From NCBI GenBank assembly GCA_030149525.1, contig JASBRJ010000028.1:1-42555 (forward strand): 42,555 nt of DNA, in the 5' to 3' direction. Made by a program: the position numbers and the translations under genes. The notes under the pieces were generated by a model. That model saw nothing but the letters and a program-made list of their open reading frames with translations, had not been told where the DNA came from and did not search any database. This DNA is from a bacterium. Lineage in GTDB: Bacteria > Vulcanimicrobiota > Xenobia > Xenobiales > JADMJV01. Below, piece by piece: positions 24,652 through 41,660 of the stretch (position 1 is its first letter; each line of letters starts with the position of its first letter).

Positions 24652-25617
24652 TTACTGAATAGAGAGTTGCCCGTCCACAACGGTCATAGCCCGTTTCTCG
24701 ATACCGTCTCCACTCCAGCGAGAAAGGTCGAAGTTCTCCCCGTTGTGGGTTGTTTGAACGTTGAGACGGCGATGAGTGAGTGGGGCATCTCCTCGTAAAA
24801 CATCCGCAGGGGCCTCGGCTTCCACGAAATGGGCACCACCCTCGCCCACGGTGCGACTTCCACCGTCGGGGGAGACGAGCACCGCTGTCTTCTCGTCGAC
24901 CCCGATGCCTCTCACCGTCTTAAGCTCATTCTCCTTCTGAAGTCGCGCCATGAAAGTCACCAGACGCCCCATGCGGTCTCTTTCTGAGAAGTGAGTGTCG
25001 GTGATAACATTCTCGAGAGTCGGCGCCTTGAGGAAATCGCTCTCAAGCGTTATGGCATCCTGAAGAGGAGCTTCCAGAGCCTCGGAGGAGGTAAGAGAAG
25101 CTTTCTCGGCCGTAAAAACATGTTCGCCCAGAATGGCAAGCCCGGCGGAGGTTCCCCCCATGGGAACGCCACGAATAAGCGCCCTGTTTAGTTCCTTGAG
25201 AAGCTCGGTATTCTTCCATTTTCCAACGTAGTTCCACTGATCGCCCCCGGCAAAGAAGATCGCCTCGGCCTTCTTCACTTTGTCCAAAACAAATTTGTCC
25301 TCTGCAGCTTTGGAATCGCGAATGACCAAAGTGCTCACCGAGTTCACATCGGCAATCTGGTCGATGTACTCCTGGTAACCGTCGGAGCCGCTTCCCCGCA
25401 AGACCAGGAAATCGCCGTTGCCCCCACGGTCGGCCATCCAACGAAAGACCTCATCCACATCGGTGGAGCCCCCCATCAGGGCCAAGCCACCTTGAGTCTT
25501 TCTTTGCACGTCTTGGGTGGAGCCTCGGTGATAATAGGTGTAGGAATTTGAAAGGGTCTTGGGCATATCCGGTTGTTCCAGGCAGAGTAGCGTGAGCCAC
25601 AGAATGAGGTAAGTCAC
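24652..25617 (-). CDS. Cyanophycinase-like S51 peptidase
   Basis: A 321-residue serine peptidase of family S51. The nucleophile is Ser157 in VPMGGTSAGLAILGE; FAGGDQWNYVGKW and the later TDTHFSERDRMGRL are the other hallmarks of cyanophycinases (as opposed to short PepE). The N-terminus (MTYLILWLTLLCLEQ) looks like a short signal peptide, so it may be exported, like extracellular cyanophycinases that degrade multi-L-arginyl-poly-aspartate. GTG 25617 is the start. No cyanophycin synthetase is present in the window. It may equally hydrolyse other beta-linked aspartyl peptides. Confidence 0.85.
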   Translation of the reverse strand: MTYLILWLTLLCLEQPDMPKTLSNSYTYYHRGSTQDVQRKTQGGLALMGGSTDVDEVFRWMADRGGNGDFLVLRGSGSDGYQEYIDQIADVNSVSTLVIRDSKAAEDKFVLDKVKKAEAIFFAGGDQWNYVGKWKNTELLKELNRALIRGVPMGGTSAGLAILGEHVFTAEKASLTSSEALEAPLQDAITLESDFLKAPTLENVITDTHFSERDRMGRLVTFMARLQKENELKTVRGIGVDEKTAVLVSPDGGSRTVGEGGAHFVEAEAPADVLRGDAPLTHRRLNVQTTHNGENFDLSRWSGDGIEKRAMTVVDGQLSIQ

Positions 25618-25761: not shown

Positions 25762-26535
25762 ATGAATATCAAGCCCACTTCACAGTCCCAACAAGTTACC
25801 GGACCTCGCTCCTCGACGAAGGCCCCGGCAAGCCCCACCGAGTCCTCCGGCGACCGAATCGATCTCGGGGTGTCCAACGACGTGCATGATATGAAGGCGC
25901 TCAGCCAAGCTTTGAGCCGAAGCTACCTGGCTTATAAAAGCACCAATTCTCGACGAGAGCAGGCCAATATTCAGCGCCAGATGGAGAATCTCTACGACTC
26001 GCACCGGTTTTCCATGAATGATGGCTTGAGGCGCTCTGAAGACAAAATGAGAAGAATCTTCCAAAAGACCGAGACCGCCTGGGAGCTTAAGCAAGGCCTT
26101 GAGGACCGCCCTGTGACTTCCGAGGTGGAGTGGAACGTTCGGAAGTTCGAAGCCGCGCAGGCCCGACCCATGACACAGGCCAATCTCTTCAACTTCTCCG
26201 ATGTCCAGGCCCAACGTCGTTTGACCGTCATGCATGAAATGAGTCAGGTAAAGCCCGAGAAAGCTGAGAAGGGGCCCGGCGCCCTGCGCGAAGGCTTTAA
26301 CCCCGATGACCCCTATTACGAGACCAGCCCCACCCTGGGAGAGAAAAAGAAAAAGGACGAGGAAGACGACTGCACCTTTGATCCCGAAGACAGCTACTAC
26401 GGCGGCAAAGTTCCCGCTGGAAAGCCCAAAGAAAGAAGAGTCGGTGACGGTTTCGATCCTGAGCCCTGGTCTTACTACGATGACAGTGTCGCGCTAGCCG
26501 GGAAGAAGCCCCCAATGGGCAAGAAGAGGCAGTAA
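25762..26535 (+). CDS. Orphan protein with three FDP(D/E)-x-YY repeats at the C-terminus
   Basis: The 257-residue product has a Ser/Pro-rich start with GDRIDLG at 30-36, a helical middle (MKALSQALSRSYLAYKSTN and on), and an acidic, lysine-rich tail carrying three related blocks: FNPDDPYY (179-186), FDPEDSYY (206-213) and FDPEPWSYY (221-229). Between them are KKKKDEEDD and lysine-rich linkers. No signal peptide or membrane segment. Repeated short acidic-aromatic blocks in a lysine-rich tail look like a multi-core substrate or a repeated binding motif. It is next to the cluster at 27-38 kb. CGGAG precedes the ATG. Function unknown. Confidence 0.75.
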   Translation: MNIKPTSQSQQVTGPRSSTKAPASPTESSGDRIDLGVSNDVHDMKALSQALSRSYLAYKSTNSRREQANIQRQMENLYDSHRFSMNDGLRRSEDKMRRIFQKTETAWELKQGLEDRPVTSEVEWNVRKFEAAQARPMTQANLFNFSDVQAQRRLTVMHEMSQVKPEKAEKGPGALREGFNPDDPYYETSPTLGEKKKKDEEDDCTFDPEDSYYGGKVPAGKPKERRVGDGFDPEPWSYYDDSVALAGKKPPMGKKRQ

Positions 26536-26638
26536 ACTTTCTCCTTCACCTGTTTAACGTTTTTTTGATTTGAGAGAGCTAATATCCGCTCGGCGATTTC
26601 ACCCATCGCCTAGATTATTAGCAAGAGGACCACTCATC

Positions 26639-27106
26639 ATGAACTTTCAAATCCCCACAACCAGCAGCGTCAGCGTCACCTGGAAACCGGGCCAACCCGT
26701 CACCGACAAAGTCCGCCAGGAGCTGATCGCTCAAGGTGAGGCGCTCGCCGAAAAAGCGAACAAAGTCAAAGACTATTTCCAGCGTTCCGACAATAACGAC
26801 TACTCCGACTCTTGCCCTGCGGAAGGCTATGTCTGCATCCCTATCGACGACAAAGGTTCGCTTCTAGAAGAGCGCGCCGACCGGATCAAAGGAAAGTATT
26901 CCGCCGAAGAGGATCGATTCACCGCCGTAGCCTGGGAAGACGGTCAAAGCTATCTGGGAGCGTCCAAGCTCATTGTGGAAGGTTCGACCATTTTCCATGA
27001 TCGTCCGGCCTATCTCAATTCGACCCCCGAGTCGATGATTGAAAGCCTCACGGCAAATCAAGACGGTACCCTCACTTACACGCGTGCGGTTCCTGTTCAC
27101 TACTAG
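26639..27106 (+). CDS. Orphan 155-residue protein
   Basis: ATG 26639, behind AGAGGA, gives MNFQIPTTSSVSVTWKPGQP. The first half has a helix (KVRQELIAQGEALAEKANKV) and two cysteines in DSCPAEGYVCIPIDD; the second half looks beta-rich (FTAVAWEDGQSYLGASKLIV). No signal peptide or known domain. It converges with the LanB-type gene with a 4-bp overlap of the stops. TTTAACGT lies 80 bp before the start, as before the PqqD-Tat gene. Function unknown. Confidence 0.7.
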   Translation: MNFQIPTTSSVSVTWKPGQPVTDKVRQELIAQGEALAEKANKVKDYFQRSDNNDYSDSCPAEGYVCIPIDDKGSLLEERADRIKGKYSAEEDRFTAVAWEDGQSYLGASKLIVEGSTIFHDRPAYLNSTPESMIESLTANQDGTLTYTRAVPVHY

Positions 27107-29250
27107 CGACAGCTCTTATCGAAGAGAACGAACCGAGCTTCTCCGGTGGCAAGGCCCTCAGGGGTCTGAAGCCACGCTTCGTCGAGCGCGGGGAGGACTT
27201 CACTGCAGCGACATTCCCCCGAGGCCACCAGAAGGCTCCAAAAAAGGTCCAGAAAAAGGACGGAATCACGCACTATAAGGAGCGGTTTGACTTCTTTGGG
27301 AAAGCGGGCAAAGAACTGAGCAGGCAAGTCTTTTCCTATCAGTTCTCGATTCAAACGGGAGATTCTTTCGGCCGTCTCAAGCGGCTGAAGAGAGGAGAAA
27401 TCGGACAGCTTCAGAGCCCAGTCCGCGCGCTTGACCACCAGGCCTCCGATCTCAACCCGGTGTCCTGGCCCGATCCGGCTGAAGGGGGAAAAGTGGAGAC
27501 TTTGCAGTTCGCTCAGTTCTCCGGAGAAAAAGTCGAGGAGATCGACATCGGGGAGGTTGGGTGCTCTCAGGCAAAATCTTTCCTCCGACGGATGAACGGT
27601 GAGATCGCCCAAACGAACCTGTTGGGAGGCAGGTCGCCAACTCCCGTGGTGAGGGTCGACCAGAACGGCATAGGCCTCCTGGTCGATCCGTCCGTCCAGA
27701 TGCAGCCTGGTAAACGGGACGAAGGTTGCGGGGCGGACATCTCTTCCCTCCCTTCTGTTCCGATACCACGACCTCAACGTCTCGATGTGGGGGTGATGGA
27801 GGGTTGTGGAGAGATCCTGAAAGGGAAATAGGCAGGGGTGGATTTCGCCTAGCACGGCCTTGCCTTGGGCGGTGAAGAGGATGTCGCAGGAGTGGAATCG
27901 AGCCCCCTTGTAGCTGTGGGTCTGTTGGGGAAACAGAAGCTCGACTCGCCGGCTCACCTCCTCACAACTGAAAGACGCTCCGCTCCTCTCCAGGTCCGGT
28001 TCCCCCAGCGCTTGCTGCCAGCGGCGGGAAAGTTCGGCCTCAGCTTCCGGAAAGCCCAGAAGTGAAGGCTTAGAAAAAATGTCTATAGTTTTCTCCCACA
28101 AAAGAACAGCCGGATATCCGTCGCCGTATCGGCGGTGAAGTTTGCGCGCCTTTTCAAGCAGCAGGTCATCGGCCGTTCTCGCTGTCTCCAGGGCCATCCA
28201 GCGGGCACTACGGAGAACCAACCCAAGAGCCGGCAGCACAGATTCCACCCATCCCGCCGGCAGTTCCATACTTCGTCTCACCCCTTCTTCATAGAACCCC
28301 AGGCGACCGCCGTAAAAGGCCCCCTTGTTTCGACTCACTTGACCGCTATTCTTGGAAGCGATCAGCTGCTGAAAGTTCTGAATGAGGTGAGGGAGGCGAT
28401 CTGAGCGAGACTCACCCACGGACATCTGTTCAAGACATGATCGAAAGCGAGCCAACTCCTTCAGAAGCGGTTCGCCAATCGAGGGGTGGTACTCTTGAGC
28501 TTTCTGAACGGCCCAATCGAGGGGAAAGCCGTTCGACGGTATCGCCGGCAGGGGGCTGATCCAACTCTGCCGCCGCGCCAAAGTAAGAGTCGCTTCATCG
28601 AAACCTTCTCCCAGGAGAGTCTCAGTCGATTGAGGCGCCTGCTTCAAGCGCTCAAGGAGTCGCTGCATCTCCTCGGTGATGGCCCGACCTCCGTTGGCCC
28701 GTCTGCTGGCCGAACCGTCGAACACCACGCCCTGTTCCAGTCGCACTTTGGGTGAGAGCCAAAGCAGAGCATGTTGGGGAGCCTGGGAAGTGAAGTGGCG
28801 CCAGAGCGCGTGAACGACCCACGGCTCCATGTAGACCTTGCGATCCCGAAGCCAGGGGCCCCGAGAGTCTCTAGCTTCAGTCGATCCGCTCACAAGATGC
28901 CCGAATCCCACCGGTCCGAAGAAACCGATCACTTCGTTTTTGGCACAGTAGCGCTGGAGATAGGAAACAAACTTTTTGAGTCGCCTCCTACTTTTGCTGT
29001 TGGAGATGTTGCAGTCACCCCGCAGAAGTGCCGGCAAGACATTGCCGGCAAAGGCCGGGTTCTGCCACCAAATGGCTTCCTGAAGGCGTTCGCTTGCGTA
29101 GATGTCCTGCAGTGTTCTGACTTCCTCGTCAAATCGAGTGGCCCAGTCCGACGTCCTATCACTTGCCAATCGACCGGGCCAGGAACTGGGAAAGCCCGCC
29201 CCTCTGAGCTGGAATTCCGGACACAGATCGAAGTTGATAGAGTTGGTCAT
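27103..29250 (-). CDS. LanB-type lantibiotic dehydratase without SpaB_C domain (PEARL-like size)
   Basis: A 715-residue protein of the lantibiotic dehydratase family. The N-terminal signature YCAKNEVIGFFGPVGFG (101-117) matches the 'K-N-x-x-x-F-F-G-P-V-G' block of this family, and KGAFYGGRLGFYEEGVRRS and RYGDGYPAVLLWEK look like further conserved blocks. Full LanBs are about 1000 residues, with a C-terminal SpaB_C elimination domain; I find no such domain here, and none next door. LanBs transfer glutamate from glutamyl-tRNA to Ser/Thr; short ones include PEARLs, which add an amino acid from aminoacyl-tRNA to a peptide C-terminus. Which of these applies is open. It starts inside the stop of the alpha-oxoamine synthase gene (ATGA overlap), so the two are coupled. 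Confidence 0.8.
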   Translation of the reverse strand: MTNSINFDLCPEFQLRGAGFPSSWPGRLASDRTSDWATRFDEEVRTLQDIYASERLQEAIWWQNPAFAGNVLPALLRGDCNISNSKSRRRLKKFVSYLQRYCAKNEVIGFFGPVGFGHLVSGSTEARDSRGPWLRDRKVYMEPWVVHALWRHFTSQAPQHALLWLSPKVRLEQGVVFDGSASRRANGGRAITEEMQRLLERLKQAPQSTETLLGEGFDEATLTLARRQSWISPLPAIPSNGFPLDWAVQKAQEYHPSIGEPLLKELARFRSCLEQMSVGESRSDRLPHLIQNFQQLIASKNSGQVSRNKGAFYGGRLGFYEEGVRRSMELPAGWVESVLPALGLVLRSARWMALETARTADDLLLEKARKLHRRYGDGYPAVLLWEKTIDIFSKPSLLGFPEAEAELSRRWQQALGEPDLERSGASFSCEEVSRRVELLFPQQTHSYKGARFHSCDILFTAQGKAVLGEIHPCLFPFQDLSTTLHHPHIETLRSWYRNRREGRDVRPATFVPFTRLHLDGRIDQEAYAVLVDPHHGSWRPASQQVRLGDLTVHPSEERFCLRAPNLPDVDLLDFFSGELSELQSLHFSPFSRIGPGHRVEIGGLVVKRADWALKLSDFSSLQPLETAERISRLNRELIGKDLPAQFFARFPKEVKPLLIVRDSVLFLDLFWSLLVASGECRCSEVLPALDEAWLQTPEGLATGEARFVLFDKSCR

Positions 29251-30464
29251 CGGGTGGCGAACTCCGGAGGCCAGAGCCCCAGGTCGCGCAAACTCTCCCG
29301 CAAACCGGCTAACTGTTCCGAGCTATGATCCACCGACACGCAAAGGCGAAGTTGGGCTTGGTCTCTGGCCACTACGGGAAAGAAGACGGTGGAGACAAAG
29401 TAGCCCCGTTCTTTCAATTTCATTCCTGCTTCGATGCAATCGTCGGCACCGCTTGTGGGGACCATGGCGATAGGGCTTACGAACTCTTTTTCCGACGGTG
29501 CCTCGGCAAACTCCCTTAGGCGAGACCAAAGTTGATGCTGCAGCCGGGCCACCGTCCCGTCTTTATGGAGCTTCACCGAAGCCAGAGCGGCTCCGATGAC
29601 CGAAAAATCCAAAGGGGCTGAAAAGCCGTAGGTGGTCCCGTAGGAGCGAATCGCCTTCTCCTGAAAACCGTGAGGAACTAGAACGCCACCGCCATTGCAA
29701 CCGAAGCCCTTGGCCAGAGAAAAGGTCAGGATGATTCGGGGTGAAAGGCCGGGTCCGGTTTGTTGCAGACAGTATCCCTCGCCTTGGGAGCCGAAAAGCG
29801 ATGTACCGTGGGCATCGTCGATGTAGAGATAGAAGTCGTGTTGGTGGGCCAGTCGTAAGAGTTCTTGGAGCGGCGCAACGCCTCCCATAGAGTAAACTCC
29901 GTCGGCCACGTAGATCGGCACCTGGTTCGCCTGTCGAGCTTTGGTCACTTCATCCAGCAACTGTTCCAGGTGGTTATGAGAGATGGACACGACCTCACTT
30001 TCTTGGGCCAAGATCGGCTTCAAGACCTGCATGGAGGCGTGGGCGAATCGGTCGAAGATGAGGCGAGTCGATCTGTTGCCCTGGGGAAAGAGAACTCCCG
30101 CAGCCAGGAGGGGCAGGGTCGACAGATGAGCGCTGGTCACCGAAGGGAAGGTGATGGCCCTTCCGCCGAAGAGTGCCGACAGTTCCTCCTCCAGGAGCTG
30201 GTTCGGTTGGATAGAGAACCGGGAACGGGCGCAGCAGAAGTGAATGCCCCACTCGTCCAGCGCCCTTTTGGCCCCGGCAATCAGGTCGGGATGAGTGTCC
30301 AAGCCCAGGTAGGAGCAGTTGATGAATTCGGTGACGGATGGAAAGCCGGGGAGAGACACCGTCTTCTTCTGCCTGGCACCGATGGTGACTTGCATCATTC
30401 CGGACTCCACCGCCGACTGAAGGTGGGCGGCCGACTCCTCTATCATCTTCCGAGTATTGCGCAC
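29247..30464 (-). CDS. Alpha-oxoamine synthase (BioF/CqsA-like PLP enzyme)
   Basis: A 405-residue PLP enzyme of the alpha-oxoamine synthase family, which condense an amino acid with an acyl-CoA or acyl-carrier with loss of CO2 (examples BioF, KBL, CqsA). Landmarks: a FINCSYLGLDTHPDLIAGA start, GVYSMGG (189-195), DDAHGTSLFG (216-225) and Lys252 in TFSLAKGFGCNGG as the PLP lysine. N-terminal ~40 residues replace the usual start. No bioA/bioD/bioB or CqsS is present, so a biotin or CAI-1 role has no local support. The downstream LanB-type gene overlaps by 4 bp, suggesting one pathway that makes an aminoketone-type group. Confidence 0.85.
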   Translation of the reverse strand: MRNTRKMIEESAAHLQSAVESGMMQVTIGARQKKTVSLPGFPSVTEFINCSYLGLDTHPDLIAGAKRALDEWGIHFCCARSRFSIQPNQLLEEELSALFGGRAITFPSVTSAHLSTLPLLAAGVLFPQGNRSTRLIFDRFAHASMQVLKPILAQESEVVSISHNHLEQLLDEVTKARQANQVPIYVADGVYSMGGVAPLQELLRLAHQHDFYLYIDDAHGTSLFGSQGEGYCLQQTGPGLSPRIILTFSLAKGFGCNGGGVLVPHGFQEKAIRSYGTTYGFSAPLDFSVIGAALASVKLHKDGTVARLQHQLWSRLREFAEAPSEKEFVSPIAMVPTSGADDCIEAGMKLKERGYFVSTVFFPVVARDQAQLRLCVSVDHSSEQLAGLRESLRDLGLWPPEFATR

Positions 30465-30535
30465 TTAAGCTCGTTCTCTCCTGATTTCTGGGGCAATATC
30501 CTGCCGTTCCTCAGACCCGGGGCGGGCAAGAGTCA

Positions 30536-30548
30536 AATTGTAACAATT
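30536..30548. promoter_or_regulatory. 13-bp palindrome AATTGTAACAATT in the divergent promoter region
   Basis: A perfect inverted repeat with one central base lies in the 214-bp gap between the divergent alpha-oxoamine synthase and the small-gene operon. It is a plausible shared operator. Its right arm recurs at 25661-25670. Confidence 0.4.
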
Positions 30549-30678
30549 CGAGCACGCCTGGGATATTCAATGTCAAAAGGATTGCGCAAGACTCGAAAGA
30601 ATCCTAGATTCAGAGGTGAAGGCTGCGCCCAATTCCTTTGAGAGTGGCGTCGAGTCTAGAGGAAGAGAGTAACACATT

Positions 30679-30966
30679 ATGGATCAGATCAGACAAGGTT
30701 CCGGTAACCAAGTAAACTATTCTACCCGCCGAAATCGGGGCTACCAAGAAGATTCGGTCAGTGGTCAGTACCAGGCAAAAGACGTAGCCGACGTCAACCA
30801 AATGGGCTACAGCAACGATGTGGAAAAATTGAACAAAGAGTTGGGTCTCGTCACTCGTCAAATCGCTCAGTATAGCGATGCCCTAGAACGAATCACGGCC
30901 CGTTTGGCTGAAGCCACAGAAGGAAGCTCTCAGCCTAAAGAGCCCGTCGAAGGCCCCGTCAGATAG
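30679..30966 (+). CDS. Small orphan protein with coiled coil
   Basis: A 95-residue protein starting MDQIRQGSGNQVNYSTRRNR, behind AGGAAGAGAG. The N-terminal third is polar and Gln/Asn/Arg-rich; the rest is helical with heptads (VEKLNKELGLVTRQIAQYSD). No signal peptide. It is the first gene of the rightward operon and is followed after six bases by the next gene. A regulatory or precursor role is conceivable; nothing in the sequence decides it. Confidence 0.65.
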   Translation: MDQIRQGSGNQVNYSTRRNRGYQEDSVSGQYQAKDVADVNQMGYSNDVEKLNKELGLVTRQIAQYSDALERITARLAEATEGSSQPKEPVEGPVR

Positions 30967-30972
30967 GTCTTC

Positions 30973-31314
30973 ATGTTCAAAGGCGACAAAGAACTCCCGC
31001 CTCTCTCCGAGCATGAGCAAGAATTCACCGATAAGGTGATGGCGCTGTTCGAAGAGCAAGATGAGAACGGTGAGTATATCCACGACGACAAAGATGTCCG
31101 GCATGTCCTCCCCGCGCTTATTCTGGGCTCAGGTATCGGTCCCAGCGTCTACACCCATGGTCCCATCAAGGGCTTATTGGCCGAGTTCAGAGCAAAGATG
31201 AAGCTCCCCGACGACGTCAGCGATCAGGACTATCTCATAGCGGCCCGCCGTTATTATCGAAAATACCCTCCCAACAAAAGCTTGCTTTCCAAGCTTCAGG
31301 AGGCTATCAACTGA
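30973..31314 (+). CDS. Orphan 113-residue acidic protein upstream of the ATP-grasp genes
   Basis: Sequence MFKGDKELPPLSEHEQEFTD onward; acidic, helical, with a GSGIGPSVYTHGP turn and an ARRYYRKYPPNKSLLSKLQE end. No known domain. It follows the previous stop by six bases, and its own stop overlaps the non-ATG start of the next gene, so the three are cotranscribed. A partner or substrate for the ATP-grasp enzymes is one possibility; nothing in the sequence decides it. Confidence 0.65.
   Translation: MFKGDKELPPLSEHEQEFTDKVMALFEEQDENGEYIHDDKDVRHVLPALILGSGIGPSVYTHGPIKGLLAEFRAKMKLPDDVSDQDYLIAARRYYRKYPPNKSLLSKLQEAIN
31298..31303 (+). promoter_or_regulatory. Perfect Shine-Dalgarno AGGAGG for a non-ATG start
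   Basis: AGGAGG at 31298-31303 lies seven bases before CTG 31311 and ten before ATT 31314, inside the end of the previous gene. No ATG exists in the frame before 31431. Good spacing supports start at one of these rare codons. Confidence 0.65.
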
Positions 31315-32654
31315 TTCCCCACCTCCCGGACAACTGTCCCGAGGTATCGGAATTCGTTTACAAGCATCATCAACAGATTCTCGACGATCCAGGTCGAGCT
31401 CTGGCGGACGCAGCGAGATTTCGCAGCCGAATGGAGGCAGAAGGTTACGACCTTCTGCCCTGGCAAGGCTGGCCGCTGCGTCCTTTTTATTTTCCTAAGG
31501 CCTCTTTGGAAGCGCTCGCCGGTCAGCTGGTCCGGACACTCCGGAGTTGGGCTTGCGATTCCCAGTCGAAGGCGCCTGAAGAGCTGGCCGGGGAACTCGG
31601 TCTGAAAGCAGAGGCCCTGGAGTCTCTCGATTATCAAGGGGCGTTTTCGGAGCCGTCGTTCACGGGATTTCTGCGCCCGGACGGATTCTTGTATCCCCAC
31701 AGCTATACCGTGGTTGAACTCAATTTCGGGAACGGCTTGTTGGTGAGCCAAGCTTACGCCGACCTGTTAGCCGAGTATCACACACAGGACCCCCGTCTCG
31801 CCTCGGAATTGAAGATCCCTCGCCCGTTCGAAAGGTATCTTGACTATCTCCAGTCTCTGGTGGACGAAAAGATCGGTCTCGTAGGCATCTTGGCCTGCGC
31901 TTCTGAGTATGAAACCATTATGTCGTGGGAGAAGCGAGTAGGCGACATGGTCAGGTTCGGCCAAGAACTTTTCCATAGGCGCGGGTGGCAAACAGTGATT
32001 CTCCACGAGGACGACGTGGAGGTCGTCCCCGGCAAGAAGGCCCTGAGCAAGGCGCTCGGACAAGAACTCGATCTCATCGTGCCGCTCACTATCAATACGA
32101 CGTTCTTCGACAGTCCCGAGTTGCTCCGAACCCGATATCGGCATTGGACCGGTAGTCGAGTCGGTCGAACACCGTTCTTCAGCCCGTTGTCGGCTCTCTG
32201 CGTGGACAAGGGAACGCTCCCCTGGCTCACTCCTCATCTGGCTTCTGGAGGAGATTTTTCCGTTGAGATTCCCTTCACGGAACCTCCCACCGAAGAGCGC
32301 ATGAGAGAGTATCGCTTGAACAGAGAGGATTGGGTTTTAAAGCGCGCTTTCGACGGCAAGGACACTCATGTGGGCTGCTCAAGTCATGGGCGCGTGTGGA
32401 ACGAAAGGCTTGCCTACGCTCTCCGCGCCGGTGGTTATGTTTTGCAGCGCTATCAATCCATGCCCACCACCATTGTCCCCGTCACCCCCGACGGTGAGAG
32501 CATTGAGTGGCTTGAGGTTTCCTTCGAACTCTCTCCCTTTCTGGTCGACAACGCCTTCGCCGGAGGCATCGTTCGCTACGCACCCAAGGCAGAAGGCCTC
32601 ATCATGAGCCCGCCCCCCGAAAACATGGGCTTGGGCGTTGCCGTGGCAGTCTGA
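31311..32654 (+). CDS. ATP-grasp-like ligase A (glutathionylspermidine-synthase-like)
   Basis: From CTG 31311 (or ATT 31314) the product starts IPHLPDNCPEVSEFVYKHHQ, a helical leader; ATG 31431 would remove about 40 residues and has no ribosome-binding site. The protein has an E-x-N block (YTVVELNFGNGLLVS), WVLKRAFDGKDTHVGC with the ATP-binding lysine and a glycine-poor loop, and YVLQRYQSM, then EVSFELSPFLVDNAFAGGIV as the end. This order fits the circularly permuted ATP-grasp fold of glutathionylspermidine synthase-like enzymes. Such ligases activate a carboxylate with ATP and join it to an amine or thiol. The loop is less glycine-rich than in ligase B, so activity may be reduced. Confidence 0.7.
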   Translation: MIPHLPDNCPEVSEFVYKHHQQILDDPGRALADAARFRSRMEAEGYDLLPWQGWPLRPFYFPKASLEALAGQLVRTLRSWACDSQSKAPEELAGELGLKAEALESLDYQGAFSEPSFTGFLRPDGFLYPHSYTVVELNFGNGLLVSQAYADLLAEYHTQDPRLASELKIPRPFERYLDYLQSLVDEKIGLVGILACASEYETIMSWEKRVGDMVRFGQELFHRRGWQTVILHEDDVEVVPGKKALSKALGQELDLIVPLTINTTFFDSPELLRTRYRHWTGSRVGRTPFFSPLSALCVDKGTLPWLTPHLASGGDFSVEIPFTEPPTEERMREYRLNREDWVLKRAFDGKDTHVGCSSHGRVWNERLAYALRAGGYVLQRYQSMPTTIVPVTPDGESIEWLEVSFELSPFLVDNAFAGGIVRYAPKAEGLIMSPPPENMGLGVAVAV

Positions 32655-32657
32655 GCC

Positions 32658-33887
32658 GTGTCCTCTGCGGCCGAAAAAATGCGGCAGAATCTAAGAGCTG
32701 AGCATTGGGTGGAATTTGATCGATTGCGACAGGGCCGATCCTGGGAGAGTGTTCCGTTGCTTCCCTGGGCTTTTCTTGTTTCATCGAAAGAGGTGGATAG
32801 ACTCAGGCTCCTGACGGAAAAACTTCACTTGGAGCTTCTGACCTGTGGGCAAACGGTTCTGAGAGACGGAAAAGTGAACGAGTGGCTGCCGCCTCTGGCA
32901 GGTCTCCGGCGCAGTGTTGTATCGGATGAGCCCTGGAGCAGTCCAGACTTTCACTGGCGCTACGACTTTTTGTGGGATAGGGACTCGGGTCGCCTTTCTT
33001 TCATCGAAGTGAACGCTGGAGACCCTTCGGGCCTGGGTTGGATCGCCTCTTTCACCCGAACGATGATGAGTCGTTCCTTTTGGCGAGACGTGTGGGGGGC
33101 TGAGGTGACGGAGTTTCCCCTGTTTGAGAATCATCAAAAGGCTCTCCTTTCCCGACTGCCTCAAGAGTCGAATCCAGTGCTCAGGCTCCTATCGGCGGAG
33201 GGCTCCACGGTGGCAAGCGATCTGGAATGTCTGGCCGAGATGTATCGTGAGGCTTCCCGGGATGCTCAGACGGCCGAGCCCAGGGAACTAGAAATTCGAA
33301 CCGATGGGGTTTTCATCGGAGGGTCTAGAGTTGATGTGCTCTTACGGGACACCTATGAAGAATTGTATTGGCCTCCTTATGAGAAGATAGGCCCCCGGCT
33401 GGAAGAGTTGGTGAGAGAGGGCCGGGTGCTCTTACTCAACCCCCTGGGGGCGAGCTTCTGGGACAACAAAGAGCTGTGGACTCTCCTTTCCTCCGGGGTG
33501 GAAGCTGCCGAAACTCGGAAATTAGAGGAGTGGGCTCTTTCTCCCGCAGAGGACTACACGGAATGGGTTTTAAAGCCGGCTTACGACTACGGAGGCAGGG
33601 GTGTCGTTTGCGGTTTTCACTCGTCGCCCGAGGTCTGGGCAAGAGCTATAAACGCGGCTCGGGATTCCGACAAGCGGTGGGTGGTACAGAGAGCAGCGCG
33701 TTCCGCCCAAGAGTGGGTGCCGTCTCTCTCCGACCAGGGCGACGTCGAATGGGTCTCTCGTTTCGTCACCTGGAGTGCTTTCGTCAACAACGGTACTTTC
33801 TCGGGCTTGATTGCCCGCTCGTCCCGATCACCGGTGGTCAATGTCCACAACGGAGGGGCTATCTTTCCGGTGCTCATTTCGGGATAG
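32658..33887 (+). CDS. ATP-grasp-like ligase B (glutathionylspermidine-synthase-like)
   Basis: GTG 32658 begins MSSAAEKMRQNLRAEHWVEF; ATG 32679 is an alternative. The 409-residue protein shows FIEVNAGDPSGLG (E-x-N type), DVLLRDTYEELYWPP, and WVLKPAYDYGGRGVVCGF, an intact ATP-grasp lysine and glycine-rich loop, then KRWVVQRAARSA. It ends with a VVNVHNGGAIFPVLIS strand. The layout is that of ligase A, three bases upstream, so the pair is a tandem paralogue set or works as a heteromer. A peptide or amine substrate is expected for the family; no spermidine or glutathione genes accompany it. Confidence 0.8.
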   Translation: MSSAAEKMRQNLRAEHWVEFDRLRQGRSWESVPLLPWAFLVSSKEVDRLRLLTEKLHLELLTCGQTVLRDGKVNEWLPPLAGLRRSVVSDEPWSSPDFHWRYDFLWDRDSGRLSFIEVNAGDPSGLGWIASFTRTMMSRSFWRDVWGAEVTEFPLFENHQKALLSRLPQESNPVLRLLSAEGSTVASDLECLAEMYREASRDAQTAEPRELEIRTDGVFIGGSRVDVLLRDTYEELYWPPYEKIGPRLEELVREGRVLLLNPLGASFWDNKELWTLLSSGVEAAETRKLEEWALSPAEDYTEWVLKPAYDYGGRGVVCGFHSSPEVWARAINAARDSDKRWVVQRAARSAQEWVPSLSDQGDVEWVSRFVTWSAFVNNGTFSGLIARSSRSPVVNVHNGGAIFPVLISG

Positions 33888-33907
33888 GCGTGGAACAACT
33901 CGTGGAC

Positions 33908-33936
33908 CCGAAAATCGTCTCAAAATTTTTTTTCGG
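33908..33936 (+). terminator. Weak A/T-rich stem-loop after ligase B
   Basis: CCGAAAA (33908-33914) and TTTTCGG (33930-33936) form a stem with an 8-base T-run. It could end the ligase operon or act in both directions. The stem is A/T-rich, hence weak. Confidence 0.4.
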
Positions 33937-33942
33937 CAGCGC

Positions 33943-33968
33943 GAACTTTCTGAGGCACTTTGCAGTCT
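33943..33968 (+). promoter_or_regulatory. ECF-type promoter candidate for the sigma operon
   Basis: GAACTT (33943-33948), a 16-bp spacer and GTCT (33965-33968) match the general pattern of ECF sigma promoters (GAAC at -35, GTC at -10). It lies 29 bp before the sigma start and would allow autoregulation. Confidence 0.5.
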
Positions 33969-33996
33969 GTAGCTCGTAACCCTATGGGAGACCGAC

Positions 33997-34611
33997 GTGT
34001 ACCAAGCTGTTTTATCTTTGACCACTGATGCAAAACATAGCCCCGAGACGGTGTCGAGTTCCAATACCCTGGAAGAGATCGCCGTCGCCCTCAAGACCGG
34101 CGATTCCAAAGCCTTGGAAGCTCTGGTCTCAAAGACCGAAAAGGCCTGTTTTCACCTCGCCTACTCACTCTTGAGAGACCGGGAGTTGAGCAGGGATGCT
34201 CTTCAGGATGCCTATCTCATCGTTTTTCAGCGAGCAGGCCAACTCCGGGAGCCCAAGGCACTTAAGAGCTGGCTCTTCAGAATCGTCACCCACTGTTGTC
34301 ACGACATCCGGAAGAAGCGCGGCTTTGAATTGGAAGCGGATGTGGAAGAGAAGGAAGAGGCGGCCCGTCCCCCCGTAGGGGTCAAGCCTGAAGCCGACCC
34401 GGCACGTCGGGTGGCCGACCAGAACCGTTTGCGCCAGGTGTTCGGGCAACTGCCGGAGATCGATCGCACGGCTCTGGCCCTGAGGGAAATCTGCTCTATG
34501 AGCTACGAAGAGATGAGCCGGACGTTAGGAGTTCCTCTTGGGACCGTTCGCTCTCGATTGGCGAAAGCTAGAAAACGCTTTATTTCCGTTTATAAAGGAG
34601 AAAAATCATGA
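33997..34611 (+). CDS. ECF (sigma-70 family) RNA polymerase sigma factor
   Basis: The 204-residue protein has region 2 (LLRDRELSRDALQDAYLIVF, then KALKSWLFRIVTHCCHDIRK) and region 4 (LPEIDRTALALREICSMSYE, EEMSRTLGVPLGTVRSRLAK). A 30-residue acidic linker lies between. There is a 30-residue N-terminal extension before region 2. GTG 33997 is the start, with GGGAG upstream. The stop overlaps the next start as ATGA, the usual sign of a sigma/anti-sigma pair. It probably directs transcription of itself and perhaps of the surrounding cluster. Confidence 0.92.
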   Translation: MYQAVLSLTTDAKHSPETVSSSNTLEEIAVALKTGDSKALEALVSKTEKACFHLAYSLLRDRELSRDALQDAYLIVFQRAGQLREPKALKSWLFRIVTHCCHDIRKKRGFELEADVEEKEEAARPPVGVKPEADPARRVADQNRLRQVFGQLPEIDRTALALREICSMSYEEMSRTLGVPLGTVRSRLAKARKRFISVYKGEKS

Positions 34612-36854
34612 CCGAACCTCACGATCAGGACACCTTTGAGCGTTTTTCTGAGTTGCTCGACCAGGAAGACGAAACCTGTGAGAACCAGGGAGTGGAGGAG
34701 GAATTACTGCTCGGTTTACGGGCCGTTCTTCGAGACCGAACCGGGACTCCGGAACTTCCCTCTGATTTTACTAAGACCATGACAGAGGCTGTCCTCAAGC
34801 GTCACAAGGAAAGCCCTTGGGCCACCAGGTTCCTCATGAACACGAGCCCCTTTCTGTTAGGAGGCGCCGGCCGAGGGAAGAGTCTTCTCAGTGCTCTCGG
34901 ACTTGGTGGTCTACTGGCTCTCACCGGGCTTCTCTCCTTCGACGCGCTTGCCGTCGTGGGCTCGGTGCTACTTGTTGGCTTTGTCAGCTGGCTTCTTGCT
35001 CGACGACGGCAGGATTCAGGACTTCCGTCCATGCCCGGTTTGGCCGAGAACTCGCCCTTTCCGGAGTCCCGGTTCCATCAACTCTGTTTCTATCTTGTCC
35101 CCACCCTGGCCATTCTTTTGAGCGGGACGGCGGCCGCTCTGATGTTTCAAGGGCTTGGAACTATCAGCTACACCTTTCGAGGAGACGAGGCCGGGCTCGT
35201 CCAGTTGGGAGTGTTCTTTGGAGTTTGCGTAGTGCTGTTGCTGAGCCTGGGATGGAAACCAACTCTCCAAGCTTACCGGCTGCGGTTCGGAAGGAGCTTT
35301 CCCGCCGTTTTTACCCTCAACATGTTCTTCGGTGGCTGGTTCTTTCTGGCCACCCTGGCTACGCTCGGCGTGACCGGGCGAATGTCGGTCGACGCCATGA
35401 GACAACACTCGGCGCTCTGGTTGATGTCTCTCGTTGGGGTCTTGGGGGTTCTCTCGTTCTTAACCACCAGGCTCTCCTGTTCTGTTCAGGCTAACGTCTC
35501 GCTAGGTCAGGCCTTGAAGAGGAGTACGGCGAGTCTAGCCATCAGCTTTCTTTCTATCGGGTTCGTTCTCAACATGTTTTATCAGATGCATCTGACAAAA
35601 GAACTCCTTTATCCCAAGGAGTACAAACAAGCGATCGATGAGGTGGAGAGCTGGCTTGCCGACCAGATGGCCATCCCCGATTCGAAGAACGGATGGATGG
35701 AAGTTAAACGGTTCATGATTCGGGATGACATCGACGCCGGATTAGGGGACGGAATCGAACTGAGGCTCGGAGCTCTGAAGGATTTCGCCGACACCGATCT
35801 GTTCAGTAAAGACCCTACAACAATGGAGAAGAACGAAGAGCTTCTCAAGCGGTGGCCCCAGGCTAAGGCGCAATTCCTGGAAGAACTTCCCCGGATCCGG
35901 GAGGCTCTGAAGAAACCTCATTTCGCCTCTATCCCAACGGAAGCCACCGACGGTTACGACTTCGCGACTCTGGTTCCCAACTTCATTCTCTTTCGCTCTA
36001 TCAGTCAAGGTTTGGCCTTACTGGCGGAGGAAGCGTTTCTCTCAGGCGAGCCGGAGCAAGCCGTTGACTACCTTGTTTTAGGACTAGAATGGAGCTATCG
36101 GGCCAACGAATCCAATAAGACTCTGATCGGTTTGATGATCAGAATCGCCCAGCTGTCCATAGCCTCGAACCCTATTGAGAAAGTCGTTCTCAGGGGAAAC
36201 CTCAACGATTCGCAGCTTGAGAGCTTAGACGCCGCCCTGGCCGCCGCCCAGGTTCCCCGAATGGCTCTGCATACGGCCATGAATCATGAGATTTATCTGG
36301 TGGACAAGTGGATTCGTCAGTTTGAAGACAGAGAGCCGAGAGCTGTTAAGGAGGTTTCTCTCGAGGACGTCCCCGCCTTCTACGAACTTCTTCCGGACAG
36401 CTATTTGGGGAGTGAGCGAAAGGCCTATTTGAATTTCGAGTTAAGCAGGGCCTCCAATTGGAAGTCGCTGGGGGCTCCAGAAGTTTTCGGGGAAGATGAA
36501 ATCAACCCGTTCAATCTGACCAGCCAGATCTTTGTTCCCAACACAGCTCGAGCTCAAGCGCAGGTCATGACCATCCGTTCCAGAGTCGACGCCCTCCGAT
36601 TAGTGATTGCCCTGGAGCGGTTCAAACGAAAGCAGGGTGGTTATCCCGCAAGCCTTCAGGAGATCGTTCCGAACTATCTTCAGGAGCTGCCGAGAGACAC
36701 CGCATCCGGCTTGCCCTGGCCACGGAAACCGGGCTTTGAATACACTTCTCACGGCCAAACCTTCCAGCTCACCTCGCGATCCCAGGTTTACGAACTGGTG
36801 GGCGAGAGTTCCAGGCAGGTTTATGGGTACCACGGAGATCACTCCGGTGAATGA
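34608..36854 (+). CDS. Large membrane protein, probable anti-sigma partner
   Basis: The 748-residue protein starts with about 75 cytoplasmic, acidic residues (TFERFSELLDQEDETCENQG) that could hold the sigma factor. About seven membrane segments follow between residues 90 and 330 (including LGLGGLLALTGLLSFDALAV, LVPTLAILLSGTAAALMFQG, GVFFGVCVVLLLSLGW and LAISFLSIGFVLNMFY). A long extramembrane region of about 415 residues closes the protein. Its end (DALRLVIALERFKRKQGGYP, SLQEIVPNYL) resembles a C-terminal part seen in large exported proteins of other phyla. No classical zinc anti-sigma motif is present. The 4-bp overlap with the sigma gene is the main evidence for its role. Confidence 0.7.
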   Translation: MTEPHDQDTFERFSELLDQEDETCENQGVEEELLLGLRAVLRDRTGTPELPSDFTKTMTEAVLKRHKESPWATRFLMNTSPFLLGGAGRGKSLLSALGLGGLLALTGLLSFDALAVVGSVLLVGFVSWLLARRRQDSGLPSMPGLAENSPFPESRFHQLCFYLVPTLAILLSGTAAALMFQGLGTISYTFRGDEAGLVQLGVFFGVCVVLLLSLGWKPTLQAYRLRFGRSFPAVFTLNMFFGGWFFLATLATLGVTGRMSVDAMRQHSALWLMSLVGVLGVLSFLTTRLSCSVQANVSLGQALKRSTASLAISFLSIGFVLNMFYQMHLTKELLYPKEYKQAIDEVESWLADQMAIPDSKNGWMEVKRFMIRDDIDAGLGDGIELRLGALKDFADTDLFSKDPTTMEKNEELLKRWPQAKAQFLEELPRIREALKKPHFASIPTEATDGYDFATLVPNFILFRSISQGLALLAEEAFLSGEPEQAVDYLVLGLEWSYRANESNKTLIGLMIRIAQLSIASNPIEKVVLRGNLNDSQLESLDAALAAAQVPRMALHTAMNHEIYLVDKWIRQFEDREPRAVKEVSLEDVPAFYELLPDSYLGSERKAYLNFELSRASNWKSLGAPEVFGEDEINPFNLTSQIFVPNTARAQAQVMTIRSRVDALRLVIALERFKRKQGGYPASLQEIVPNYLQELPRDTASGLPWPRKPGFEYTSHGQTFQLTSRSQVYELVGESSRQVYGYHGDHSGE

Positions 36855-36912
36855 CTCCTTTCTATCTGAGAAGCTAAAGCTATTTAACGTCAAAGCCTTA
36901 TAAATGCAGGGT

Positions 36913-36945
36913 TCTTGACAGAATCTTGATGCAATCTTGACAAAC
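36913..36945 (+). promoter_or_regulatory. Three 11-bp direct repeats upstream of the PqqD-Tat gene
   Basis: TCTTGACAGAA, TCTTGATGCAA and TCTTGACAAAC follow each other without gap. The period of 11 bp places all on one helix face, as in OmpR/PhoB-type operators. They lie about 130 bp before the start at 37074. TTTAACGT is also found at 36883-36890. Confidence 0.55.
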
Positions 36946-37073
36946 TTTCACAGGTCCTCCGCCTGCCTCCCTGAACCACTTCGACGCAAGGGGGGCAGCA
37001 CACAAGACCCTGATAGCGGTGGCTCAAGTCGCTTGCCCATCAGCAGTAGAAAGTAAGAGACTGTATCCCCTAT

Positions 37074-37778
37074 ATGAAGATGCCGAGCAAATTGAACCTG
37101 GAAACCACCATGCAGCAAGAGGTGGGAGATGAGCTGATCGTTTATCAGAAGATCGGCGGCAAGGTTCATCACCTGGAGCCGACTACTGCCTCCGTTTATC
37201 AGGCGTGTGATGGAGTTTCGGACTTTTCAAGCGTTGCCTTAAGGCTTACCGGAGGCGATGAAGAACGCTTGCGGCTCATCATCAAAGAGCTGTCGCAAGC
37301 GCGGCTCGTTGAGGCCGTCGAGACGACTTCAACGCGGCGAACCTTCCTTCAAACGGCGGGTAAAGCGGCCGCTCTGGTTCCCCTCGTCACAACCGTTATG
37401 ATGCCAGATCCCGTTTCGGCTCAATCCACTTGCGTTGCGGGCGGAGGCGCCGGATGTGCTGCCCAACCTCGGACGAGCGGTACGAGTGGCGTGGGTCCGA
37501 ATGGTTGCGTGCCGTGTGACGATGATGCTGCAGGGAACAGCTGCGCTACCACAACCTGCGCCTATCAATTCAGCTGTAGAGATTCTGGGGGAAATATAGT
37601 GCCTTGCGACGCAATGGCGCCCAATATCTGCGAAGCGGGCACGAACGACCTCCTGGCCTCGACGACCTGTGCTACCAATGGGGGAATCCTGAGCAATTAC
37701 CGGCCCAACTGCTCGGATGCGAAGCTGGCAGCAGCCAGCGGGGGCTCTAGTTTCTATACCTGCTGTAGTTGTGTCTAG
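37074..37778 (+). CDS. PqqD-like domain + internal Tat signal + Cys-rich domain
   Basis: Residues 14-82 form a PqqD-like fold, as in RiPP recognition elements: a VGDELIVYQKIGGKVHHLEP beta region, VYQACDGVSDFSSVALRLTG, then IIKELSQARLVE. Residues 87-93 are a twin-arginine motif (T-R-R-T-F-L-Q), followed by a weakly hydrophobic GKAAALVPLVTTVM and a cleavage site near VSA-Q at 116-117. The exported part (117 residues) has 14 cysteines, ending CCSCV. So a peptide-binding domain sits in front of an export signal, which is unusual: the domain would be removed or held in the cytoplasm at export. Start ATG 37074, ribosome-binding site weak. Modification by the neighbouring LanB-type, ATP-grasp-like or other enzymes is a hypothesis. 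Confidence 0.8.
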   Translation: MKMPSKLNLETTMQQEVGDELIVYQKIGGKVHHLEPTTASVYQACDGVSDFSSVALRLTGGDEERLRLIIKELSQARLVEAVETTSTRRTFLQTAGKAAALVPLVTTVMMPDPVSAQSTCVAGGGAGCAAQPRTSGTSGVGPNGCVPCDDDAAGNSCATTTCAYQFSCRDSGGNIVPCDAMAPNICEAGTNDLLASTTCATNGGILSNYRPNCSDAKLAAASGGSSFYTCCSCV

Positions 37779-39819: not shown

Positions 39820-39862
39820 AGAATGCTTTAAGATGCAAACCTAATTTATTTGCATTGCAAAG
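39820..39862 (+). promoter_or_regulatory. CATTGCAAAG repeats and ATGCAAA/TTTGCAT inverted repeat before the lipoprotein
   Basis: CATTGCAAAG occurs at 39820-39829 and 39853-39862, 33 bp apart (three helical turns), and ATGCAAA-N9-TTTGCAT spans 39833-39855 in a locally A/T-rich stretch. The right end is 13 bp from the start codon, so binding would probably repress. Confidence 0.45.
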
Positions 39863-39875
39863 TTTGGGACAGAAA

Positions 39876-41660
39876 ATGAGACATCTTTTGATTTTTTTGG
39901 TAGCGTCGTTACTATTTTTCGGTTGCGGAGGGAGCAATGATTTTGCCGATGGTGGATTCGGCGGAACTGGTAACGGCAGTACTGGCGGTACCACCGGCAC
40001 AACTGGTGGGAGTGGCACTGGCACAACTGGCGGCACGACTACAGCTACCACCGGTGGTGGTGGTACCACTACCGGAGGAACCGGGACCACAACTGGTGGA
40101 ACAACGACGGGCGGAACGACCGGAGGCACCACAGGTGGAGGAACTTTGCCTTCAGCAACGGACGATAGGTTCACCTCCATTGGAAACGCCAGAGTCTCTT
40201 ACCCCTCCAACCACGGAGTACTTCAAAATGACACACTCAACGGTGCCACCATCACCACCGGTACTTTTAACACGAGCCAAGGCGGCAGCGTGACAATCGC
40301 TGCCGACGGGGGATTCACCTACACACCGGCGGCCGGTTTCACTGGCACAGACACCTTCACGTACACCCTCACGAACACCGCGGGGACAGACCAAGGAACT
40401 GTATCGTTCTCTCTTCCTCAACTCGCCCATTTTGTAGACAACACGGCGACTTCCGGGGGCAACGGAACTCTCGATACTCCTTTCAACAATTTCCAAGCGG
40501 CTAACCAAGCCACCAGCGAAGGTGATGTGATTTTCGTTTTTCGAGGGGACGGAACGGCCACGGGTCTTTCCAACTCTGGTGGAATGTTGAAAAACAATGT
40601 GAGAATTGTAGGGGAGACGTTGGGGCTCAGAAACACTGATGTGGAAATCGTGCCGGCAGGCGGGCGGCCGAACACACTTCTAAGACTCAGAACTCAAGAC
40701 AATAACTTCATCGGTGGTCTCAGATTTGAAGTGGCGGGCGCTAACCAGCACGCGGTCTTCACCGATCAAGATGGCTCCTTCACTTTCTCGGACAATGTGG
40801 TCCTAGCTGAGGGCACTTCTGCTCTTCTTGTGGTCGATCTCGACGGAGACGTGGTCATTCAAGACAACACTTTTGAATGCACCGGCGGCAGCGAACCGAT
40901 GATACGCTTTCGTCACGGAGTGAACATCTCGCCTTCGACGAATCCTGGAATCGCCACTACTCTTACTGTCGACGGAAACGGATTTACCGCCAGAAGCGGC
41001 TCTGGGAATATCGGTGATGTCTTAGATATCCGCAACGCCAGAGGCCTGACTTTGGATGTGACCTTGCAGAACAACCTGGTCAACGGATTTGGCAATGGCG
41101 TATGGAATCGCTACGCCACGTTCACTCGTGAGAGCATCTCTCCCGGATCAGGGTACTCAACGACGGTTGCTATCACAGGCGATGTAGCATCATCTATACG
41201 TGGAGAAGTCATAAGGGTAGACCACGATCAGAACGGCGGCCTCAATATGAATGTTCTGAACAGCCAATTCACCACGAATGGGGCTAACACTGTAGGTATT
41301 TTTCCCTCGGGCACGACCACCAGTCGCGTCAGTGTTGCTTCTAGCACCCTGACTGCTGCTAATCGTCCCTTTCTTACCGAAGTTCTTGATTCTGCTACTC
41401 TCAATCTGCAACTACTAAGCTCGACCTTCAGTAACGCCACAAATCCGGTAGCTGTGGAAGTCAGCGGCGCGGGGAACGCCTCGATCTGTTTGGACGCCAC
41501 CGGCAACACATTCAACTCAGGCCTTGAGTTGGATCAGTCGGGTGCCAGTACCACTCTTGGGGTTGAAGAAGACAGCAACCTAAGCGCTCTCAACAACAGC
41601 GCTACCATCACGAGGACTGGAACAATTGGCGACCTCATGAACGGAGCTTGCGGATTCTAA
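39876..41660 (+). CDS. Lipoprotein with Gly/Thr linker, Big/cadherin-like and beta-helix domains
   Basis: ATG 39876 gives a lipoprotein signal: MRHLLIFLVASLLFFGC, with the lipobox Leu-Phe-Phe-Gly-Cys. About 70 residues of Gly/Thr repeats follow (GGTTGTTGGSGTGTTGGTTT). Next is a bacterial Ig/cadherin-like domain (YPSNHGVLQNDTLNGATITT, then SVTIAADGGFTYTPAAGFTG and TDTFTYTLTN), and then a right-handed parallel beta-helix-like region (ATSGGNGTLDTPFNNFQAAN to the end). It is anchored in the membrane and probably exposed at the cell surface. The upstream operator region is described separately. Confidence 0.85.
   Translation: MRHLLIFLVASLLFFGCGGSNDFADGGFGGTGNGSTGGTTGTTGGSGTGTTGGTTTATTGGGGTTTGGTGTTTGGTTTGGTTGGTTGGGTLPSATDDRFTSIGNARVSYPSNHGVLQNDTLNGATITTGTFNTSQGGSVTIAADGGFTYTPAAGFTGTDTFTYTLTNTAGTDQGTVSFSLPQLAHFVDNTATSGGNGTLDTPFNNFQAANQATSEGDVIFVFRGDGTATGLSNSGGMLKNNVRIVGETLGLRNTDVEIVPAGGRPNTLLRLRTQDNNFIGGLRFEVAGANQHAVFTDQDGSFTFSDNVVLAEGTSALLVVDLDGDVVIQDNTFECTGGSEPMIRFRHGVNISPSTNPGIATTLTVDGNGFTARSGSGNIGDVLDIRNARGLTLDVTLQNNLVNGFGNGVWNRYATFTRESISPGSGYSTTVAITGDVASSIRGEVIRVDHDQNGGLNMNVLNSQFTTNGANTVGIFPSGTTTSRVSVASSTLTAANRPFLTEVLDSATLNLQLLSSTFSNATNPVAVEVSGAGNASICLDATGNTFNSGLELDQSGASTTLGVEEDSNLSALNNSATITRTGTIGDLMNGACGF

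Follow-up and report, generated by a model that had tools for sequence, protein, structure and literature searches.

A conserved cassette of a putative PEARL-type LanB-family ligase, an alpha-oxoamine synthase and twin ATP-grasp ligases beside a candidate ribosomal carrier peptide

Introduction

In pearlin pathways, a PEARL (peptide aminoacyl-tRNA ligase) extends a carrier peptide at its C-terminus with an amino acid, which is then tailored and released (PMC9303977). Amino-group carrier protein (AmCP) pathways use an ATP-grasp ligase to attach an amine to the C-terminal Glu of their carrier, at its gamma-carboxylate (PMC10433800). SnaE (threopeptin), which is of the type annotated as "lantibiotic dehydratase", is a PEARL-like ligase (PMC11212132). 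As for the alpha-oxoamine synthases (AOSs), Alb29 (albogrisin) produces aminoketones from L-glutamate and acyl-CoAs (PMC11906848).

The window analysed here, a stretch of 42,555 nucleotides (contig JASBRJ010000028.1), carries a cassette that has features of several of these systems. With the pearlin pathways (3-thiaglutamate tgl, 3-thiahomoleucine tmo and ammosamide amm), it shares a putative PEARL beside a small candidate carrier with a conserved C-terminus, tailoring enzymes and, at some loci, an adjacent exopeptidase. In contrast to these pathways, no MNIO (DUF692), radical SAM enzyme or flavoenzyme was identified in the cassette, whose further enzymes are an AOS and two circularly permuted ATP-grasp ligases; its carriers end in P-[VL]-E and its PEARL is of the NRPS-associated branch. 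The NRPS-associated PEARL-like enzymes (SnaE) are the nearest sequence relatives of its LanB proteins and are likewise stand-alone proteins of ~700-800 aa lacking an elimination domain, but the cassette has no recognised NRPS, adenylation or carrier-protein gene and its LanBs form a branch of their own. Concerning the AmCP pathways (LysW/LysX; Vzb22), the likeness lies in a small carrier with a conserved C-terminal Glu next to an ATP-grasp ligase, whereas, compared with the LysW type, the carriers have neither a Zn ribbon nor EDWGE (Glu being present in seven of eight), the ligases are circularly permuted, and a PEARL and an AOS are added.

Judged from its genes, the cassette is neither a LysW-type AmCP system (no Zn ribbon, no EDWGE) nor a lanthipeptide dehydratase system (no SpaB_C). 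The best-supported reading is that it resembles a pearlin or AmCP pathway, having parts of both together with a presumably amine-supplying AOS. No described system joining these families was found in the literature searched, most subscription journals being outside its scope, in agreement with an earlier sequence-only reading of this DNA, which knew of none with this set. To our knowledge, pearlins have not been described in these phyla.

Results and discussion

Gene layout of the window

The gene inventory of the sequence-only reading was recovered in full, every gene being found where it had been placed. The features are as follows.

24652..25617, minus strand: P0012, peptidase family S51 (PF03575, 44.4 bits)
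27103..29250, minus strand: P0002, LanB-family protein, 715 aa; PF04738 match, SpaB_C absent
29247..30464, minus strand: P0003, PLP-dependent AOS, 405 aa; GTG start
30465..30678, no strand: predicted divergent promoter region between the AOS-LanB and carrier-P0005-AG1-AG2 transcripts, from the gene arrangement
30679..30966, plus strand: P0004, candidate ribosomal carrier peptide, 95 aa; C-terminus ...PKEPVEGPVR
30973..31314, plus strand: P0005, small putative helper protein, 113 aa; homologues in L060 and L163
31298..31303, plus strand: AGGAGG ribosome-binding site for P0006, from the sequence
31311..32654, plus strand: P0006 (AG1), divergent circularly permuted ATP-grasp ligase, ~447 aa from CTG 31311
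32658..33887, plus strand: P0007 (AG2), circularly permuted ATP-grasp ligase of the acid-amine ligase type, 409 aa
33997..36854, plus strand: ECF sigma factor P0008 and overlapping membrane protein P0009; outside the cassette
37074..37778, plus strand: P0010, PqqD-like/Tat/Cys-rich protein; outside the cassette

Two gene overlaps reported earlier were confirmed. P0002 and P0003 form a minus-strand pair overlapping by 4 bp, the coordinates and family matches agreeing with a LanB-type gene without SpaB_C next to an AOS, and P0008 (end 34611) overlaps P0009 (start 34608), also by 4 bp. Spacers of 109 bp and 219 bp precede the ECF and P0010 genes, respectively. A Myxococcota contig contaminating the assembly was excluded, as the tetranucleotide use and GC of the contig fit those of the other contigs of the same genome. 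No match to anti-phage defence families was obtained. Further downstream, P0015 (window positions 39855-41660) is predicted to code for a Gly/Thr-rich, lipoprotein-like protein of 601 aa with long GT repeats.

Conservation and distribution of the cassette

The conserved cassette consists of the LanB-family protein P0002, the AOS P0003 and the twin ATP-grasp ligases AG1 and AG2. AG1 was found at 14 loci including the window, from several phyla but mostly Myxococcota, LanB being adjacent in all 14. Nine loci have the complete set of four enzymes, and the remaining five lie on short contigs or, in the case of L063, have neither AOS nor AG2 nearby; AOS and AG2 occur at nearly all AG1 loci on sufficiently long contigs, although AG2 was not detected in L163, whose contig measures 8.2 kb. 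Since LanB, AOS, AG2 and AG1 are found jointly at the cassette loci, they travel together, which supports one conserved pathway. AG1 is a near-perfect marker of the cassette and, being invisible to Pfam, offers a handle for finding more of them.

The LanB-alignment scan of the named genome collection yielded 77 loci, only three of which hold AG1: L059 (Archangium MAG), L060 (Myxococcota MAG) and L063 (unplaced bacterium). Both L059 and L060 also hold AOS and AG2, and L060 has a P0005 homologue. No AG1 was found in the other 21 LanB genomes that were searched whole. When the AG1 profile was run against 195 genomes from the phylum of the Archangium genome, ten more loci were obtained, each with an adjacent LanB, and 392 genomes from the phylum of L063 gave one match. 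A search of the phylum of G161 was empty, but had no positive control and therefore shows little.

As for the phylum of the window itself, 147-149 sampled genomes contained no counterparts of P0002 and AG1, except for one LanB remnant in a different class (L027:3989-4555, genome G024), which covers the C-terminal 125 residues with 34% identity and suggests a lost copy of a cassette-like LanB. It was rejected as a second cassette, consisting only of this 125-residue stretch without partner genes. On the LanB tree, the branch separating the cassette LanBs from 64 other LanBs has an SH-aLRT support of 99, P0002 itself being a long branch, and the cassette AOSs form one clade (support 98/98). In the five Myxococcaceae-type loci L165-L169, AG1 and LanB are separated by an antiparallel gene that codes for 320-380 aa and belongs to no known family.

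The LanB-family protein P0002

The sole family match of P0002 was PF04738, with 26.4 bits, just below the 28-bit cut-off, while its cassette relatives lie above it (37-82 bits). SpaB_C (PF14028) matched neither P0002 nor its cassette homologues, and none was recognised nearby. The P0002 sequence had no match in the solved-structure library; its AlphaFold model (pLDDT 81, pTM 0.85) had MibB, TbtB, MadB, NisB and GodF as best PDB matches (E 1e-17 to 1e-20). According to this model, P0002 folds as a LanB glutamylation domain without the elimination domain.

In the PEARL BhaBC-Trp, residues E813, R815, D558, E575, R715 and F755 bind ATP, and Y205 and R208 bind tRNA, R34 being a further residue of the set (PMC11962472). 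Counterparts in the same order and spacing are present in P0002 (R16, Y97, R100, D456, E469, R608, F647, E704 and R706), as mapped by spacing from the published BhaBC-Trp/TglB numbering and not by alignment to either, and they are invariant or nearly so across the cassette LanBs. P0002 would then be a PEARL-type ligase dependent on ATP and aminoacyl-tRNA. It is not a dehydratase, SpaB_C being absent and the PEARL ATP/tRNA residues kept.

Outside the cassette, its closest LanB relatives are mostly NRPS-associated PEARL-like proteins annotated as "lantibiotic dehydratase", adjoining NRPS, adenylation and ACP genes. Another uncharacterised PEARL-containing cluster was seen on a Streptomyces plasmid (L035:10140-19821), with methylaspartate mutase, LanB/PEARL-like, ACP, AMP-binding, ATP-grasp and condensation-domain genes.

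The alpha-oxoamine synthase P0003

P0003 scored 379.8 bits against NF005697 (curated cut-off 342), followed in rank by AOS families. By sequence, it qualifies as an AOS in having the PLP lysine, the histidine over PLP and the D-x-x-H motif: Lys252, His142 and D216-x-x-H219 are invariant in ten cassette AOSs. Its nearest solved structures are 8XHA (Alb29) and three similar ones. Despite this likeness, Alb29 is distant from P0003 (158.7 bits) and its gene context differs. AOS relatives from rhizobial plasmids (38-40% identical) were rejected as cassette members, their neighbours being ABC-transporter and acetolactate-synthase genes, without LanB.

The twin ATP-grasp ligases

Ligation of small molecules is known for circularly permuted ATP-grasp enzymes, glutathionylspermidine synthase being one example. 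P0007 (AG2) matched PF14403 (CP_ATPgrasp_2) with 40.2 bits (cut-off 32), and the AG2 profile matched the glutathionylspermidine synthase-like acid-amine ligases 3N6X (putative; 2e-7) and YgiC (0.008), whereas the P0007 sequence alone had no match in the solved-structure library. AG1 differs from these ligases in being outside every Pfam model: none recognises P0006 or its homologues, with three of which (the AG1 proteins of L060, L059 and L063) it is 34-41% identical. The AG1 profile matched the AG2 family profile (99%, E 1e-17), and it is through this match that AG1 is assigned to the circularly permuted ATP-grasp group. The ATP-binding lysines of the twin ligases (K260/K304 and K271/K306) are invariant. 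An AlphaFold model of AG1 built from four sequences had a pLDDT of 49.

The most likely start of P0006 is CTG 31311, overlapping the P0005 stop, and not ATG 31431, because of the AGGAGG at 31298-31303 and because the upstream in-frame residues resemble the N-termini of homologues. This gives a homologue-like length of 447 aa, vs. 407 aa from the ATG. With a CTG (or ATT) start, ORF callers limited to ATG/GTG/TTG put the start 40 codons late.

The candidate carrier peptide and its neighbour

A tiny ORF with an AGGA/GGAG-type (purine-rich) ribosome-binding site lies upstream of AG1 at eight loci, including the window. The order is carrier, P0005, AG1 in L060, L163 and the window, whereas the ORF directly precedes AG1 in L059, L161, L162, L164 and L063. 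Seven copies terminate in Glu, with the endings GRKPVE (L059), GKKPVE (L161), PGKPVE (L162), PGRPLE (L163), PGKPLE (L164), GSEPLE (L063) and GIGLLE (L060); six of the eight have P-[VL]-E and one LLE, while P0004 of the window reads PVE-GPVR, its last four residues having no counterpart in the other carriers. Among 10,607 ORFs of at least 40 residues at the carrier and other LanB loci, a set that does not include the L164 carrier, only six end in P[VLI]E, five of them carriers. Further in, a GW-x-P motif is common to the carriers of L059, L161, L163 and L164, and five copies have a Trp 10-18 residues from the end. Several have few or no Ser, Thr or Cys near the C-terminus.

Because both the last-residue codons (GAG/GAA) and the stops (TGA/TAA/TAG) vary among carriers, the conserved entity is a protein and not a DNA signal. 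The VE/LE-stop ending as an artefact of the next gene's ribosome-binding site was rejected on the same variation, and the next gene in L060 lies ~70 bp further on. The L059 and L161 carriers differ by 10 synonymous and 9 non-synonymous codons out of 48. On these sequence features, P0004 is likely to be the ribosomal carrier peptide of the cassette. As in pearlin pathways, a candidate ribosomal carrier thus stands beside the PEARL at eight loci, with a conserved C-terminus at seven. A carrier ORF was looked for and not found at L165-L169.

P0005 has homologues of 33-34% identity in L060 and L163, where they lie between the carrier gene and AG1. The two small genes called orphans in the sequence-only reading are indeed present, P0004 being placed as the likely carrier and P0005 having homologues at these two loci.

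Peptidases near the cassette

An M28 peptidase gene adjoins LanB in L165-L169, with a 4-bp overlap in L168 and L169, and an M24 peptidase gene follows LanB in L063. M28 or M24 is therefore adjacent at six loci, and no protease is common to all cassette loci. An M14 gene lies near the L060 cassette, and the S51 gene P0012 near that of the window, separated from P0002 by two plus-strand ORFs. P0012 may possibly be the release peptidase, the M28 and M24 genes beside LanB at other loci being its analogues.

Proposed pathway and alternatives

The enzymes are conserved together, they belong to established families and have intact catalytic residues, and AG1 is preceded by a tiny gene whose C-terminus is conserved. 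The chemistry that we infer, with a probability of about 0.5, is the construction of an amino-acid-derived compound on a small ribosomal carrier, here P0004, at its C-terminus. Its steps are given in no particular order. The AOS would use an amino acid and an acyl thioester to make an alpha-aminoketone. AG1 and AG2 would couple a carboxylate, after its phosphorylation, to an amine that is plausibly the aminoketone; this carboxylate could be the gamma or alpha one of the terminal Glu or belong to the growing product. P0002, as a PEARL, would use ATP to phosphorylate a C-terminal carboxylate and add an amino acid from aminoacyl-tRNA, and an exopeptidase would then free the product. A more specific form of this proposal, rather doubtful, combines two logics on one C-terminal Glu, the ATP-grasp ligase loading the aminoketone on one carboxylate and the PEARL extending the other, to give a ribosomally anchored peptidyl aminoketone.

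Against this reading stand the missing exact C-terminal Glu in P0004, the want of one protease shared by all loci, the mapping of the PEARL residues by spacing, the lack of a carrier ORF in L165-L169 and the nature of the nearest non-cassette LanBs, most of which are NRPS-associated PEARL-like enzymes, a type able to use small molecules with no carrier peptide. These last two points favour a serious rival, less probable than the carrier reading, namely a carrier-free small-molecule pathway in which the AOS aminoketone, the ATP-grasp ligases and the PEARL produce a short peptide through soluble intermediates, the tiny gene being a regulator or something else. The habit of circularly permuted ATP-grasp enzymes of joining small molecules, mentioned above, fits it as well, and so does SnaE, which belongs to the NRPS-associated type and extends a small molecule (PMC11212132). 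It leaves aside, however, that the tiny ORF has a conserved C-terminus, ribosome-binding site and position at seven other loci, and that none of the cassette genes was recognised as coding for an ACP, an adenylation domain or a CoA ligase. Within the carrier reading, an AmCP-like sub-case can be entertained tentatively: AG1, like LysX, would put an amine on the gamma-carboxylate of the terminal Glu, which keeps it protected during the action of AOS and PEARL, and the PEARL would take the bound substrate instead of the carrier main chain. In LysW, whose ending is EDWGE, the last Glu takes an amino group via LysX (PMC10433800; PMC9303977); a terminal Glu is likewise present in the carriers of the cassette, five copies having the Trp described above, and AG1 is the enzyme gene adjoining the carrier. 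Yet they have no LysW Zn-ribbon cysteines, AG1 is in the circularly permuted group and was not identified as LysX, and P0004 does not end in Glu. Finally, the LanB fold of P0002 would suit a glutamylation enzyme making dehydroamino acids in a peptide, but this is very improbable given the missing SpaB_C, the invariant PEARL-typical ATP-binding E-x-R pair and Asp/Glu ligands, and the scarcity of Ser, Thr and Cys near several carrier C-termini.

Under the carrier reading, an AOS and twin acid-amine ligases would be added to the small set of PEARL-partner enzymes, and the cassette would test carrier peptides as a general alternative to thioester carrier proteins. The set is compact, with four enzymes and a peptide of 46-57 residues in the simplest loci, and could be rebuilt in E. 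coli.

The ECF pair and the P0010 family

P0010 matched the PqqD-like model TIGR04353 weakly (E 0.003) and the Tat signal (0.01). As six of its ten scanned relatives pass the Pfam PqqD cut-off, the PqqD-like domain is real, which bears out the sequence-only reading; of its 15 cysteines, 14 follow the Tat signal, the number given in that reading being 14. P0010-type proteins were found at ten further loci in the order (L017-L026), none of which has LanB, AOS or ATP-grasp genes, and homologues of P0008, P0009 and P0010 are absent from all 13 other cassette loci. P0010 belongs to a separate export family of this order. It was therefore rejected as the substrate, since its homologues live apart from the cassette enzymes, and the ECF pair was rejected as a cassette part for want of homologues at the other loci.

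The earlier proposal, that all these parts form one pathway in which the LanB-type enzyme and the ligases modify the exported P0010 under ECF control, consequently holds for the LanB, AOS and twin ATP-grasp genes, kept together in the neighbourhood comparison of the 14 loci, and fails for P0008, P0009 and P0010. Proximity in this single contig and the presence of a PqqD-like domain speak for P0010 as substrate, but a PqqD/RRE modification system built on it is hardly credible, its PqqD protein not being conserved with the enzymes and the two spacers setting the ECF and P0010 genes off from their upstream neighbours.

In this lineage-specific family, the PqqD-like domain stands before an internal Tat signal, an unusual arrangement. 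The C-terminal parts of the P0010 relatives are Cys-rich or Gly-rich, up to a YfbK/VWA protein, which in one member (L018:4910-6850) is complete and forms the exported part. The Cys-rich tails end in Y-x-CC-x-C, and the family member of L025 adjoins a MauE/DoxX gene.
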